The notes under the pieces are model-generated. The model ran no database searches, was not told where the DNA came from, and was given only the letters and a program-made list of their open reading frames with translations. Positions 32,328 to 37,800 of a DNA stretch of 64,000 nucleotides are shown here, in pieces. The position numbers and the translations under genes are program-made. This DNA comes from Geodermatophilus poikilotrophus. Lineage in GTDB: Bacteria > Actinomycetota > Actinomycetes > Mycobacteriales > Geodermatophilaceae. Numbering within the stretch: the stretch's first letter is position 1; every line of letters begins with the position of its first letter. The stretch lies in NCBI RefSeq assembly GCF_900111455.1, contig NZ_FOIE01000005.1, positions 1 to 64,000 of the forward strand. Direction: 5' to 3'.

Positions 32328-33434
32328 TCAGCAGGACGGGGTCAGCGTGGTGGTCTGCTCGGTGGACACCCACGTGCCGTCATGGGTCCAGACCCGGTAG
32401 GTGTAGGTCGTGCCGTTCACCAGGCCCGTGTCGGTGAAGGTCGTCGTCCCCATCGGCACCGTGCTGCTCCCCTGGACCGTCCCGTTCACCAACCGCCGGC
32501 CCTGGTAGCCGTCGGCCCAGGAGCTCGGGCTGGCGGTCCAGGTCAGGATGGCGGCGGGCTGCTGGGGAGCGGGACGCAGGGCGAGGGTCTGCCCGATCCA
32601 CTCGGCCTGGAAGTTGCTCGACGAGGCCGAGCTGCGCACCGGCGTCGCACCGGGCCCGGCGAAGGACACGTCACCCGCCGAGACACCCTGGATGGAGGTG
32701 CCGGTCCCGGAGAGCAGCCGCCACCGTTCTGCGGTGCCCCCGGGCGCGGGGAGCTGCTCCTGGCGCTTCGTGGTGACGTGCACGAGCACCGTGTTCGCGA
32801 CCGTGGTGGTCACCGAGGGAACCGTCGTGGTCTCGGAGGAGCCGGTCATCGCGTGGTGCGCGTCCACCGGGGACGTGGTGCGCACGCCCCTGTACGCGGC
32901 GATGCCGCCCGCCGTGTCGACCGAGGCCGCGAGCTGGAAGGTCGCGGTCGCGGGTTCGGTGGCACTCGCCACTCGCCAGAAGAGGGCTGACGTCACCTGG
33001 GGGGTGCCGTTGACCTGGTTGACCTGGTTCACGCTGTCACGGCGGACGAGGTTCCACCCGGTCGGTGGTGGGGTGAGCGTCGCAGGGCCACCCCAGTTGC
33101 TCACCTGGGCCACGAGGAGGTCCCCGGCGCGGGTCTCGGGAGGGGTCTGCAGGGTGAGCGACCCCGAGCCCCTCGCCGACGTCGCGCCCTGGAACTCGAT
33201 GGTGCTCGACGCGCAGCTCGTCGTCGCCGTCAGGCCGGAGGGTGGCTGCAGCTGATCGGCGGCCAGGGTGTTGGCGGGGTTGGCCGTCGTGGACGTGAAG
33301 ACCGCGGACGCCGGCGGCAGCGCCAGCACGGCGACCACGAGTGCCAGCACGGCGACGAGCGGCGCCAGGGCAGCGACCGGACCCACCAGGCGGGCTCCGG
33401 GAGCCCGCCGGCGGCGCCGGTGCGGCTCGTCCAT
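32328..33434 (-). CDS. Secreted surface protein with SipW-type N-terminus, PKD-protein module and FN3-like end
   Basis: A 368-residue protein, last gene of the fibre-like locus. A basic leader and long hydrophobic segment (about 17-42) end in PPASAVFTSTTANPAN, the cleavage-site style of SipW substrates. Residues about 70-285 match the ~200-residue module repeated three times in the protein at 1407-5456 (GDLLVAQV, EPATATF, LALRPAP). The last 75 residues resemble a fibronectin type III domain and end in Cys. I infer a role as a surface or fibre-associated adhesin. ATG 33434 was chosen because GGAAG lies just upstream and the signal sequence begins there. Confidence 0.75.
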   Translation of the reverse strand: MDEPHRRRRRAPGARLVGPVAALAPLVAVLALVVAVLALPPASAVFTSTTANPANTLAADQLQPPSGLTATTSCASSTIEFQGATSARGSGSLTLQTPPETRAGDLLVAQVSNWGGPATLTPPPTGWNLVRRDSVNQVNQVNGTPQVTSALFWRVASATEPATATFQLAASVDTAGGIAAYRGVRTTSPVDAHHAMTGSSETTTVPSVTTTVANTVLVHVTTKRQEQLPAPGGTAERWRLLSGTGTSIQGVSAGDVSFAGPGATPVRSSASSSNFQAEWIGQTLALRPAPQQPAAILTWTASPSSWADGYQGRRLVNGTVQGSSTVPMGTTTFTDTGLVNGTTYTYRVWTHDGTWVSTEQTTTLTPSC

Positions 33435-33573
33435 CGTCTTCCATCCCTCCGTCCCCGTCCCGCGCGTCCGCGGGGTGCTCGGTCCAGGCATCGGCACGGG
33501 CCCGTTCAGGATTGAGCCGTCCACCCCCCGAGCACGCCGGTCCACCCCGGAGGAGGGAGCGCCAGGGCCTCGA

Positions 33574-35235
33574 TCAGAGGGCCGCGTGCACCCTGGCGGG
33601 CACCGGCGGGAGGGGGATCCGCGTGACGGTCGCCTCGTCGACGGCGACGCCGCTGACCGGTCCCTCCACGCCCGCCATGTGGGCCTGGTCCCGCCCGCCG
33701 GCCTTGGCGGCGTACAGCGCGGTGTCCGCCGCGGCGAGGAGTTCCGCGGCAGGGAGGCCGGCCCCGTGCTGGCAGGCGATGCCCAGGCTCGCCGTGATCG
33801 GTCTCGGTGCCTCCACCTCCCGGAGGACCGTGCGCAGCCGGCGCGCGACCGCGACGGCGTCGTCCGCCGTGGCGCCGGGCAGGACCAGCGCGAACTCCTC
33901 ACCGCCGTAGCGCGCGGCGACGTCGCCGGGCCGCACGCAGGCCCGCAGGGCTGCACCGACGCCCCGCAGGACGTCGTCGCCGGCCTGGTGGCCGTAGGTG
34001 TCGTTGAGCTTCTTGAAGTGGTCGAGGTCGATGATCAGGACCGACAGCGGCGCACCGCTGCGGGCGGCGACCGCCAGCTCCCGGTCGAACGCGGCATCGA
34101 AGGCCCGGCGGTTGGCCACCCCGGTGAGGCCGTCGGTGAGCGCGCTGGCCTGCAGGTGCTCCAGCAGCGCGACGCGGGCGAACGCCGTCGCGGCGTGCGC
34201 GACCGCCTGTTCGGCGACACCGACCCGGCGTCGCTCGATGCGCGAGCCGCTGCGCGCGTCGTCCTGGAAGGTCAGGACACCGCTGCCGCCGCCGTCCAGG
34301 CCGAACGGGACGGCGACCACCCGCCGGGCGCCCTCGAGCACCTCGTCCACCCACGGGTCGGGGCCCTTCACGGCCGCCAGGAGCGTGCTGCCCCGGTCGA
34401 CCGCTGCAGCGAGCAGCGACCCCGGCAGCGCAGCGCCGACCGCCCGCAGTGGCTCGGCGTCCTGCTCCCGGTGCTTGCGGACGGCCAGGTCGACCGCCGG
34501 CACCGCGCTGCCCTCGGGTACGTGGCAGTGCACCGCGGCCAGGGGGGAGTCGGCGGCGTCGACGGTGAAGTCGAGCAGCGCCTCGGCCACCTTGGCGCCG
34601 GTGTCCGCCTCGTGCAGGGCGCCCGCCAGCCGGCGCAGCGCCTCCTCGTCGTAGCGACGGCGACGCAGCTCGCGCTCGTTCACCGCACCCAGGCCCGAGG
34701 TCATCATCGCGGTCACCCAGACGGCGACCAGGAACACCCCGTAGGGCAGGGGGTCGAAGCCCTGGACGGGGCCGTGTGCGGGCAGCAGGGCCGTGTCGAC
34801 CGCCTTGAGGACCGACATGACCACGAGGGAGTGCCACAGCGCGAGCTTCAGACCGGTGCGGAACGACCCCAGCAGCGTGACGCAGATGACGTGCAGGACG
34901 ATCACGTACACCACCGGTCCGGTGATGCCCCCGGCGACGTAGAGCGCCCATCCCAGGTGGACCGCGTCGAGGATGACCGGCACCGTGATCGCCGCCACCG
35001 CGAAACGTCGACCGAGCGCCGACAGCTTCTGCAGCACCAGCCCGACGGCCAGCAGGACGGCCCCCGGCACGGCGAGGGTCTCCACCGGTGGTGTCTCCGC
35101 CGTCCGGGTGATCGTCCACGCCGCGACAGGCAGCAGGACGACGACGCCGATGCGGACGGCGAGCAGCCACCGGAGGCGGTCGGCCAGGGGCAGGTTGTCC
35201 AGGGAACCCTGTGGGGACGCAGGCGTCTGGCTCAT
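33574..35235 (-). CDS. Membrane diguanylate cyclase (GGDEF) with GAF-like sensor
   Basis: A 553-residue protein. Six or so membrane segments fill residues 20-190, a GAF-like region follows (about 210-365), then the GGDEF domain. The active site is GGEEF at residues 444-448 with LIIDLDHFKKLNDTYGH upstream, so it should make c-di-GMP. An intact inhibitory RxxD (RPGD) lies five residues before GGEEF. Its ATG overlaps the stop of the anchored TasA-like gene (ATGA), directly linking the cyclase to the secreted-fibre genes. Confidence 0.93.
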   Translation of the reverse strand: MSQTPASPQGSLDNLPLADRLRWLLAVRIGVVVLLPVAAWTITRTAETPPVETLAVPGAVLLAVGLVLQKLSALGRRFAVAAITVPVILDAVHLGWALYVAGGITGPVVYVIVLHVICVTLLGSFRTGLKLALWHSLVVMSVLKAVDTALLPAHGPVQGFDPLPYGVFLVAVWVTAMMTSGLGAVNERELRRRRYDEEALRRLAGALHEADTGAKVAEALLDFTVDAADSPLAAVHCHVPEGSAVPAVDLAVRKHREQDAEPLRAVGAALPGSLLAAAVDRGSTLLAAVKGPDPWVDEVLEGARRVVAVPFGLDGGGSGVLTFQDDARSGSRIERRRVGVAEQAVAHAATAFARVALLEHLQASALTDGLTGVANRRAFDAAFDRELAVAARSGAPLSVLIIDLDHFKKLNDTYGHQAGDDVLRGVGAALRACVRPGDVAARYGGEEFALVLPGATADDAVAVARRLRTVLREVEAPRPITASLGIACQHGAGLPAAELLAAADTALYAAKAGGRDQAHMAGVEGPVSGVAVDEATVTRIPLPPVPARVHAAL

Positions 35236-36293
35236 GTGGGTGCCGTCCTCGGCAGCTCGGGGAAGTCTCGGAAGTCGTTCAGTTCCTGGTGGACGCGGGC
35301 CAGCGCCAGCTTCGGGTCCCGCCGGTCGAGCCGGCCCTGCACGGCCAGGAACCCCGCGGAGACGGCGACCAGCGCGAGCGGGAACTGACCGTCCTCGACG
35401 ACGGCGATCGCCGTCTCGCCCACCGCGGCGGCCACCTCGGCGACCGTCGTGGGGGACGCCTGCAACGGCGGCGCCTGGACGACGTCACCGTCCCCGCGTG
35501 GCTCGTTGCCACCCGGATCGGTGGCCGGCGGTGCCGGGGTCGGACTCGGCGTCTCGGGAGGGAGGACCGGCTCCGGCTGGGGCGCCGGGACCGTGCTGGG
35601 GAGCGGCGTCGGCGTGGGGGTCGGCGTCGGCGTCGGGGTCGGCGCGGGCGGTTCGGCTCTCGGCGGGGGTGGGGGCAGCGGCTCCGGGCTCGGGGCCGGT
35701 GTGGGGGTCGGCGCCGGGACCGGTTCGGGGACGGGCTCGAAGTCGAGGGCCCAGACGAAGGTGGCCGCGGCTCGCAGGCCCTGCGCCCGGTGGTCGTCGA
35801 GGACCGTGACGCTGATCCGGTAGGTCGTCGAGGCCGAGTCCCCGGGCCGCCAGCCCGTCGGGATCCCTGCGGCGGCCGTGCGCGGCAGCTGCGCCAGCGT
35901 CCCGCTCCACGCGGGTACGCCGGTGAAGGACGCACACCGCGCCGGGTCGCCGAGCGTCCCGCGCTCGACGGTGACGAGCAGGTGCGGGGCGAGGGCGTCC
36001 TCGGTGACCTGGGCGCTGAGCGTCACCTCACCGATCGACCGGGCGGACCCGGTCACCGCCAGCGCCACGCAGGCGGTCTCCGTGGCACCCGGGCGCAGGT
36101 CGGTGGAGGTGAACAACGCCGTGCCACCGCGGTCGTCGACCAGGCTGACCGCACTGGTGGTCGCGGCGGCAGGCTCGACCGGCAGGTCGACCGCCCCGGC
36201 CGCCAGGTGGGCGAGCAACGCGGCACCGACCAGCCAGGCGGCTCCCCGGGTGCTGAGCAGGCGCGGGGACGTGACGGGCGATGGTGGGCGCAC
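35232..36293 (-). CDS. TasA/camelysin-like protein with Pro-rich wall linker and C-terminal membrane anchor
   Basis: A 353-residue protein. A signal segment (about 17-33) precedes a beta-rich domain (about 40-190) with RPGATETACVALAVTGS, LAPHLLVTVERGT and CASFTG, matching at each point LKPGSTGSRCIRIDYTGS, LDPYLVMSIERGV and CSGFTP of the 229-residue protein at 37111. Residues about 193-275 are Pro/Thr-rich, including (PT)n. A C-terminal hydrophobic segment (about 305-325) is followed by a basic-acidic cytosolic tail. The layout fits a fibre anchor, comparable in role to Bacillus TapA (inference). GTG 36293 has GGGGAGA just upstream. Confidence 0.7.
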   Translation of the reverse strand: MRPPSPVTSPRLLSTRGAAWLVGAALLAHLAAGAVDLPVEPAAATTSAVSLVDDRGGTALFTSTDLRPGATETACVALAVTGSARSIGEVTLSAQVTEDALAPHLLVTVERGTLGDPARCASFTGVPAWSGTLAQLPRTAAAGIPTGWRPGDSASTTYRISVTVLDDHRAQGLRAAATFVWALDFEPVPEPVPAPTPTPAPSPEPLPPPPPRAEPPAPTPTPTPTPTPTPLPSTVPAPQPEPVLPPETPSPTPAPPATDPGGNEPRGDGDVVQAPPLQASPTTVAEVAAAVGETAIAVVEDGQFPLALVAVSAGFLAVQGRLDRRDPKLALARVHQELNDFRDFPELPRTAPT

Positions 36294-36421
36294 CGTCTCC
36301 CCCTCTCTCGGCGAGGCCGCGGTCCGGTCTCCGGAACCGCTCCGGCTAGCTCATGTCTTCGGCGGCGCGCGGCGGATGTTGAGCAGGGCGGGCGGCGGTC
36401 ACCACGCCGCGCCACCGGTCG

Positions 36422-37114
36422 TCAGCGGCGCCCGGTCCCGCGGGCCGGCACCGTGCCGGCCGACGGGGGCACGGGCGGCAGCCCGACGCGGTGGACGACG
36501 TGGTCTGCGGCCGGGGCGGTGGCGAGCCGGTCGGCGCTGGTGAGGCCGCGCGACCGCCCGGCCCGGCTGCCGGTCCCGCTGACGGTGGAGACGGCCGCTG
36601 CCGCGAGCAGGGCGGTGAGCCCACCCAGGTGGCCCCACTGCCCGGTGAGCCGCCAGTACGCGGGGAGCCCGACGTGGGGCACCCGCAGCTGCGCCTCGCC
36701 GATGACGCTGGCAGCCGGCACGGGCGTGGTGTCGTTGCTCTGGTTGGCGTCGCCCCGCGTCACGAGGTCCCCCCGCTCGTCGAAGGAGACGAGGCGGTGG
36801 AGCAGCAGCCGGTCGGCCCCCTCGGGGTCGGGGAAGAGCAGCACCTGGCCCGGCTGCAGGTCCTGCGGGAGCACCGGACGCGTCAGCACCACGTCGCCGG
36901 GCGAGATCCGCGGCTCCATCGAGCCGGAGACGACCACGTGACCCTCGAAGCCGACGAGTCGCGGGGCGAGGGCGAGGAACACCAGGCCCGCGACGGTCAC
37001 CAGCAGGGCCGCGACGACTCCGCGGTACACGGCAGCCGGCCGGAGGCCCTGCTCCCCGACCTCGGGTCCGGGCACACGGGAGCGCGGGGCGCTGGTCAGG
37101 ACGGGCGCGGTCAC
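36422..37114 (-). CDS. SipW/ER-type signal peptidase I
   Basis: A 230-residue membrane peptidase. The nucleophile is Ser65 in SGSMEP; the general base is His106 in LLLHRLVSF, in place of the bacterial Lys, and the RGDANQSND box follows. Those features define the archaeal/ER/SipW branch rather than LepB. Hydrophobic segments lie at about 32-52 and 165-185. GTG 37114 overlaps the stop of the TasA-like gene (GTGA). In Bacillus, SipW processes TasA and TapA; here it very likely cleaves the neighbouring secreted proteins. Confidence 0.92.
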   Translation of the reverse strand: MTAPVLTSAPRSRVPGPEVGEQGLRPAAVYRGVVAALLVTVAGLVFLALAPRLVGFEGHVVVSGSMEPRISPGDVVLTRPVLPQDLQPGQVLLFPDPEGADRLLLHRLVSFDERGDLVTRGDANQSNDTTPVPAASVIGEAQLRVPHVGLPAYWRLTGQWGHLGGLTALLAAAAVSTVSGTGSRAGRSRGLTSADRLATAPAADHVVHRVGLPPVPPSAGTVPARGTGRR

Positions 37115-37800
37115 GGGGTGCCTCCCGCTTCCCCGGTGTTCCGCGCCTCCCACGTGAACGTGGCCTCGGACAGCTTGCCCTGCGCGTCGTCGTTGTCCGC
37201 GAGGACGTACGTGATCCGCAGGGTCATGGACGTGTTCTCCGTGGCTGCCGGCTCGACGACGATGCCGGAGCCGAAGTCCCGGTGCTCGGTCCTGAGGTGT
37301 GCCAGCGTCCGTGAGGTCGCGTCCGGGACGCCTGGGTGGGTGCGGTCGAGGAACGTCGCCGTGGCTCTCGGGGTGAACCCGCTGCAGTCGACCGCCACCT
37401 CGGTCTCCGGGTCGACGTCCACGCCCCGCTCGATGCTCATCACCAGGTAGGGGTCCAGGTCCTCCGCGCCGGCCGGCGACCCGGTCCCGTCCGGCTCGAT
37501 GTACATGCGGATCTCGGCCTCCAGACTGCCCGTGTAGTCGATCCGGATGCAGCGCGACCCGGTCGAGCCGGGCTTGAGGAGACCGTCCTCCGCGCTGAAG
37601 AGCGGGGTGAACACGGCCCCGACCTTGGCGTTGTTGTCGAGGTCGACGGTCCCGGTCTCCCACGAGTTGCCGGGGTTGTGGGTGGTGGCCGAGAAGGCCG
37701 CGTGGGTGGCGCCCCAGGTCAGGGCCAGGCTCGTCACGAGGCCGACGGGCACCGCCACGGAGAGGGCGGTGCGGCGAGCCCGGGGGGCGCGGTAGCGCAC
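37111..37800 (-). CDS. TasA/camelysin-like secreted protein (candidate major fibre subunit)
   Basis: A 229-residue protein, first gene of the locus. A signal segment (about 12-33) ends THAAFSATTHNPGNSWETG, the pattern of SipW-dependent TasA/CotN proteins (Ala-rich cleavage, then F-S/T and N-rich). The remaining domain is beta-rich with two Cys residues (CIRID, DCSGF) that could pair. GTG 37800 has GGAGGAG 7 bases upstream, the best ribosome site of the operon, consistent with high output. Family membership rests on motif reading and on the adjoining sipW gene. Confidence 0.78.
   Translation of the reverse strand: MRYRAPRARRTALSVAVPVGLVTSLALTWGATHAAFSATTHNPGNSWETGTVDLDNNAKVGAVFTPLFSAEDGLLKPGSTGSRCIRIDYTGSLEAEIRMYIEPDGTGSPAGAEDLDPYLVMSIERGVDVDPETEVAVDCSGFTPRATATFLDRTHPGVPDATSRTLAHLRTEHRDFGSGIVVEPAATENTSMTLRITYVLADNDDAQGKLSEATFTWEARNTGEAGGTP

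Follow-up and report, generated by a model that had tools for sequence, protein, structure and literature searches.

Genes for actinobacterial surface proteins with a conserved cytosolic tail, among them a TasA-type protein of Geodermatophilus poikilotrophus, mostly adjoin those of one family of membrane-bound GAF enzymes

In the LapD/LapG/LapA systems, c-di-GMP controls the display of a surface adhesin, and LapD, a degenerate GGDEF–EAL receptor, acts inside-out by protease capture. Matrix fibres of the TasA type have been studied in Bacillus species. According to two reports, the N-terminal strand of each TasA subunit enters the next subunit, while TapA donates the first strand from its own N-terminus (PMC9674648, PMC10151520); two TasA-type proteins are described for B. 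cereus in the latter report (PMC10151520). The locus described here, from the soil actinobacterium Geodermatophilus poikilotrophus, resembles the Bacillus subtilis tapA–sipW–tasA and Bacillus cereus sipW–calY operons in that it encodes a protein of the TasA fold (P0001), with an N-terminal segment in the donor-strand position, next to a SipW-type Ser/His peptidase (P0002), and, like B. cereus, it has two TasA-type proteins. It differs from these operons in that the second TasA-type protein (P0003) is devoid of the donor segment, membrane-anchored and tailed, and its gene is paired with that of a diguanylate cyclase (DGC; P0004). No TapA homologue was identified here. A transmembrane link between a surface adhesin and c-di-GMP, as proposed below, would be shared with LapD/LapG/LapA; unlike LapD, however, the partner of the tailed surface protein is an apparently active DGC.

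The window, i.e. the whole stretch of DNA analysed, comprises 64,000 nt (positions 1–64,000 of contig NZ_FOIE01000005.1). All five minus-strand reading frames that the earlier note had placed at 32328..37800 were confirmed there (Table 1), although its description of them as one co-translated unit was not borne out. The P0001 stop contains the P0002 start (GTGA, 37114–37111) and the P0003 stop contains the P0004 start (ATGA, 35235–35232), while the gaps of 128 nt ahead of P0003 and of 139 nt ahead of P0005 (if the latter starts with the ATG at 33434) make the layout one of two overlapping pairs followed by a fifth gene, not a single unit with tight coupling throughout. Furthermore, in loci L038, L128, L131, L135, L141, L151 and L155 the genes of the free TasA protein and SipW are wholly or partly on the opposite strand to the P0003–P0004 pair. 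The five-gene operon as a unit was rejected because the tail–enzyme pair was also found without TasA and SipW. A consensus scan of the locus revealed no promoter- or terminator-like sites. The fn3 match of P0005 (E 0.034) is too weak to reach the cut-off; among ten same-genus loci, P0005-like genes are present in two copies in six, in one copy in three and absent from L031.

Table 1. Features of the locus (positions in the window)
Feature	Position	Strand	Description	Basis
P0001	37111..37800	-	TasA/camelysin-like secreted protein, 229 aa	AF2 model, fold matches
P0002	36422..37114	-	SipW/archaeal-type signal peptidase, 230 aa	TIGR02228, S65, H106
P0003	35232..36293	-	353 aa: signal peptide, TasA-like domain, Pro/Thr-rich linker, single C-terminal TM helix, cytosolic tail	
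P0003 TasA-like ectodomain	35733..36161	-	residues ~45-187; no N-terminal donor-strand segment	hhalign, motif count
P0003 TM helix and conserved cytosolic tail	35235..35387	-	residues ~303-353; QGRLDRRDPKLALA motif	alignments A1, A2, genome samples
P0004	33574..35235	-	diguanylate cyclase (DGC), 553 aa: six TM helices, GAF, GGDEF domain	
P0005	32328..33434	-	secreted protein; SipW-type N-terminal region AVFTSTTANPAN; weak fn3 match	by eye (N-terminal region)

The identification of P0001 as a TasA-like secreted protein stands, since its AF2 model has the TasA jelly-roll fold and finds its best matches among solved structures in TasA (5of2, 5of1, 8aur); the fold comparison that had been proposed for it thus came out in favour of TasA. 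The N-terminal AAFSATTxNPGNSWxTG segment corresponds to a SipW-type cleavage region and a presumed donor strand. At the level of profiles, P0001 scored 15.7 bits (E 0.013) against PF12389 (Peptidase_M73), under the curated cut-off of 22.5, and 5 of 23 family members matched Peptidase_M73 at E ≤0.1 (best 2.2e-5); a Pfam M73 search of its whole genome gave no match. The NCBIfam TasA equivalog NF046066 did not match P0001 and matched two of 23 members of its family weakly (best E 0.0041). Sequence comparison of P0001, or of its family, with solved structures did not turn up TasA, and a scan of genome contigs with the P0001 sequence alone returned no matches. A second TasA-type gene is located elsewhere in the same genome (L047, G000:C13:224856-225476), with no SipW or tail gene found in the 18 kb around it. 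The assignment of P0002 as a SipW-type peptidase is likewise upheld by a score of 69.6 bits against TIGR02228 (archaeal/ER-type signal peptidase), above the cut-off of 51.85, and by the presence of S65 and H106 (His in place of Lys), which are presumably the catalytic Ser and His; against the Bacillus SipW equivalog NF046067 it reached 48.1 bits, below the 190-bit cut-off.

For P0003, a second TasA-like domain carrying a C-terminal membrane anchor had been claimed, and hhalign did match the family of its ectodomain to that of P0001 (99.7 % probability, E 2.7e-25; A4 vs A5); Pfam yielded no family match in P0003. The two kinds of TasA protein differ at their N-termini: of 41 free TasA-type proteins, 39 have the donor/SipW motif, counted with a loose, self-made pattern, versus 1 of 27 tailed ones, the single positive being a chance match inside the domain, and the tailed proteins begin almost directly at the first strand. 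These observations suggest that tailed TasA proteins may accept a strand but cannot donate one, i.e. that they would be acceptor-only base subunits, a role deduced from the missing segment, and that SipW is probably not their peptidase. The TapA analogy drawn earlier for P0003 found no support in the same count and was set aside, as P0003-type proteins have no N-terminal donor segment and end in a conserved cytosolic tail.

Matches to P0001 (E ≤0.001) were found in 19 of 61 genomes searched, and 23 stretches around such matches were examined. The order P0001–P0002–P0003–P0004 recurs in ten of the 23, all from the same genus (L028–L037), and P0005-like genes are present in nine of these ten, which confirms the co-occurrence anticipated for related genomes. 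The flanks of these ten loci are also conserved: MoeA and the gene after it border one end in 10/10, and the enoyl-CoA hydratase and mannosyltransferase genes border the other in 9/10. Among the other loci, L038, from another family, has the P0003–P0004 pair diverging from P0001–P0002, eight contain TasA and SipW without the tail or a P0004-type enzyme, and four contain TasA alone. In ten same-genus genomes with no, or only a distant, P0001 match, MoeA was found in all ten and the hydratase in six, separated by 2,495–2,997 bases in three (G011, G013, G018), by 4,511 and 4,988 in two and by 13,696 in one; in the window this distance is 8,467, of which the five-gene block accounts for 5,473. The distance in G011, G013 and G018, which have no P0001 match, is therefore shorter by about the size of the block, and, as far as distances only can tell, the entire block seems to be gained or lost in one piece in at least three genomes.

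The proteins of the block are not equally constrained. Between the window and six relatives, mature P0001 has 60 % amino acid identity and a pN/pS of 1.05, whereas the corresponding values are 87 % and 0.37 for the TasA domain of P0003, 67 % and 0.58 for its linker, 89 % and 0.33 for its TM helix and tail, and 89–92 % and 0.24–0.33 for P0004. P0001 was the least constrained (pN/pS 0.34–1.35 versus 0.17–0.34 for P0004; 15 pairs of six) and is the fastest-changing protein measured in the block, with a pN/pS of 0.93–1.35 between the window and five relatives and of 0.34–0.84 among the relatives.

The end of P0003 that follows the TM helix is conserved (..FLxVQxRIDRRDPKLALA..). A first profile of this tail, for which nothing but the tail sequence was used in the selection, had matches in 24 of 394 genomes of the class (E ≤0.01). 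At the 20 strong places of the 29 listed, with the window excluded, the next same-strand gene matched the membrane part of P0004 in 17; 16 of these neighbours carry GGDEF as well, and the other is truncated where its contig stops. The remaining three genes (L097, L098 and L099, the same as L126, L127 and L120) encode short secreted proteins with the variant tail DKRDVKLS, and the GGDEF genes near them were without a P0004-type membrane part by the searches used.

A wider scan of 84,980 species genomes, with a 25-row tail alignment as the query, yielded 57 loci in Geodermatophilaceae, Frankiales, Kineosporiaceae, Micromonosporaceae, Cellulomonas, Acidimicrobiia, Nitriliruptorales, Solirubrobacteraceae and unclassified actinobacterial bins; at least 19 of them coincide with sites already covered by the earlier searches, so the locus sets are not independent. 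The domain of a 6TM–GAF enzyme starts 20–63 nt after the last tail codon (measured to the first aligned enzyme residue) in 48 of the 57, with GGDEF as the output in 42 (including L138, whose enzyme is split by a frameshift), histidine kinase in three and a contig end in the remaining three. Of the other loci, L146 encodes a fusion (see below), and in L147 the order is reversed and the enzyme precedes the tail gene. Seven loci have no adjoining 6TM–GAF enzyme: the tail gene is followed by a metallo-beta-lactamase-fold gene in L119 and L145, by an AMP-binding gene in L112 and by two frames in which no family was found in L111, and other GGDEF genes are located nearby in L120, L126 and L127.

In the class sample (394 genomes), the A3 enzyme profile identified 23 places in 20 genomes and the A2 tail profile 22 places in 17 genomes; 16 genomes had both, and at 18 of the 22 tail sites the tail gene is the immediate upstream neighbour of an A3 enzyme on the same strand. 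In the phylum sample (336 genomes), which shares the window's own site with the class sample and whose other strong places belong to genomes of other classes, there were 28 A3 places in 26 genomes and 21 tail places in 18 genomes, all of the latter within the 26, and 18 of the 21 tail sites are directly upstream of an A3 enzyme on the same strand. Tail sites without an adjacent enzyme thus numbered 4/22 and 3/21 in the class and phylum samples, and A3 places without an adjacent tail found 5/23 and 10/28, although the enzyme-to-tail count is biased toward linked enzymes because A3 was built from them; per genome, the best 5–6 candidates were scored in the A3 searches and the best 16–18 in the tail searches. 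Of the ten A3 places of the phylum sample without an adjacent tail found, the eight weak ones (E >1e-40) may be other enzymes or fragments. In G712 a degenerate tail-like end (E 0.07) was detected upstream of the A3 enzyme, and no upstream tail was seen at the A3 match in G642:C197. Full-length A3 enzymes with no adjoining tail gene occur in G094, G166 and G177 of the class sample (L171, L172, L173), where the neighbouring genes resemble, by eye, those of proline catabolism. Judged by gene order, tail genes pair with one enzyme family. Neither the tail motif or its pairing with an enzyme, nor an actinobacterial TasA/SipW system with a DGC, was found in the literature covered, which was mostly outside subscription journals.

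P0004 had been described as a GGDEF cyclase with an intact active site and an RxxD site, and this description was confirmed by a Pfam GGDEF match (1.5e-45), GGEEF at 444 and the RxxD inhibitory site at 435; Pfam gave no EAL match. The protein is apparently an active DGC. Within the A3 family, GAF was recognized in 15 of 32 members and 6TM_PilS in 9 of 32, so that the input part of P0004-type enzymes resembles, in some members, the PilS-like 6TM and GAF of known sensor kinases and cyclases; unlike those sensors, however, P0004-type enzymes share the LLxSFRTGLKLALWHSL and NERELRRRR motifs and are linked to tail genes. A histidine kinase takes the place of GGDEF in seven distinct loci (L125, L129, L130, L196, L200, L201, L202). 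In a natural fusion, L146, a single case from a metagenome-assembled genome, stalk, TM helix, tail, 6TM, GAF and GGDEF are all encoded in one frame. Alignment A6 placed the tails on the sixth helix of the enzyme and was set aside for modelling; A7, from which the tail rows had been removed, was used instead, and the tail of L146 was therefore modelled without alignment depth. The AF2 model shows the six helices and GAF with high confidence and the tail segment at a pLDDT of ~40–67. A fold search with this model returned GAF-type structures among the matches listed, none of them informative on the membrane part. The enzyme of L153, from a bin labelled Acidobacteriota, is nearly identical to that of L150, from an Actinomycetes bin, and this label may be a binning error.

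In contrast to the constant tail and 6TM–GAF part, the ectodomains differ. Of five ectodomains scanned with Pfam, three (L089, L105, L148) contain Big_13 Ig-like repeats, and fn3 was found in the protein that precedes the L204 enzyme, a protein whose tail is only degenerate; open frames reach 2,892 aa. A tree of the N-parts of 57 enzymes calls for at least five changes of ectodomain label, of which two are forced by well supported branches; many of its branches are long. SipW, on the other hand, follows the TasA version: among 69 distinct tail proteins, it was encoded in the stretch examined around 24 of the 27 of TasA type versus 1 of the 42 others (Fisher P 3e-14, a statistic that ignores relatedness), although a SipW gene upstream could be missed where a giant ectodomain fills much of the stretch. 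A whole-genome check of 14 tail genomes detected TasA in four, exactly those with a TasA-type tail protein, and in each of the three of these that show no SipW in the vicinity, a free TasA is encoded at another site. The tie between fibre production and c-di-GMP that the earlier note had proposed was not supported: the same tail–DGC pair also accompanies unrelated ectodomains, in genomes that yielded no TasA, so the DGC follows the tail and not the fibre. On this comparison of gene neighbourhoods, the adjacency of tail and enzyme and the differing ectodomains indicate that the conserved unit is a tailed surface protein with a 6TM–GAF enzyme, of which TasA/SipW is one ectodomain version.

The reading that we favour, at a probability of roughly 60 %, is that P0003 and P0004 are a cognate receptor–enzyme pair, in which the cytosolic tail of P0003 would engage the membrane/GAF part of P0004 and set its c-di-GMP output. 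In the TasA version, P0002 would mature P0001 and probably also P0005, and P0001 would polymerize by donor-strand exchange until P0003, a TasA fold without a donor strand, accepts the last free strand of the fibre and so serves as its membrane-anchored base; loading or completion of the fibre would then be reported via the P0003 tail to P0004. The contact between tail and enzyme, the direction of the signal and the role as fibre base are what we infer.

The pairing, adjacency and fusion data would also fit if the tail, which is short and has no domain of an enzyme (P0003 is without a Pfam match), only recruited the DGC to the surface protein and produced local c-di-GMP without the state of the ectodomain being sensed. 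This tethering is nevertheless unlikely, as a GAF domain between the membrane part and the output, and the replacement of the DGC by a histidine kinase, both fit a regulated input better than mere placement. The linkage of tail and enzyme is also symmetrical as to direction, and the DGC or its product could work through the tail to govern how the surface protein is displayed, assembled or released, comparable in outcome, by another route, to the c-di-GMP-controlled adhesin display of LapD–LapA; such inside-out control is regarded as improbable, since Pfam detected no domain for c-di-GMP binding in P0003 and the kinase variant would require another mechanism. A role of the tail as a signal for membrane insertion or sorting by other machinery, with the enzyme linked only by shared regulation, accords with the position of the motif directly after the TM helix and with the 7 of 57 tail genes without an adjoining enzyme, but is very improbable given that the conserved residues follow the helix on its cytosolic side, which sets them apart from LPXTG and PEP-CTERM signals, and that one particular enzyme family accompanies many different ectodomains and is part of one fusion.

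The receptor–enzyme reading may extend beyond this locus. Tentatively, and at slightly less than even odds, the pairs could constitute an undescribed, loosely integrin-like class of actinobacterial modules, in which swappable ectodomains (a TasA fibre base, Ig-repeat proteins with open frames of >2,000 aa, fn3 or disordered stalks) would share a TM–tail plug for one 6TM–GAF socket with a DGC or histidine kinase output. In the TasA version, where the tailed protein would be an acceptor-only fibre base, the cell would read assembly or load of the fibre directly as c-di-GMP.

It is an open question how Gram-positive cells perceive the matrix they produce, and the pairing described here would link TasA-type fibres to c-di-GMP. 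More generally, the finding that tail genes usually have the gene for one matching type of enzyme as their direct neighbour suggests a way, undescribed so far, for surface proteins to signal inward. A short tail that marks both a receptor and its partner enzyme would make actinobacterial surface receptors findable by sequence, and the compact plug-and-socket pair, with its natural fusion, would be suited to structural and mutational tests.
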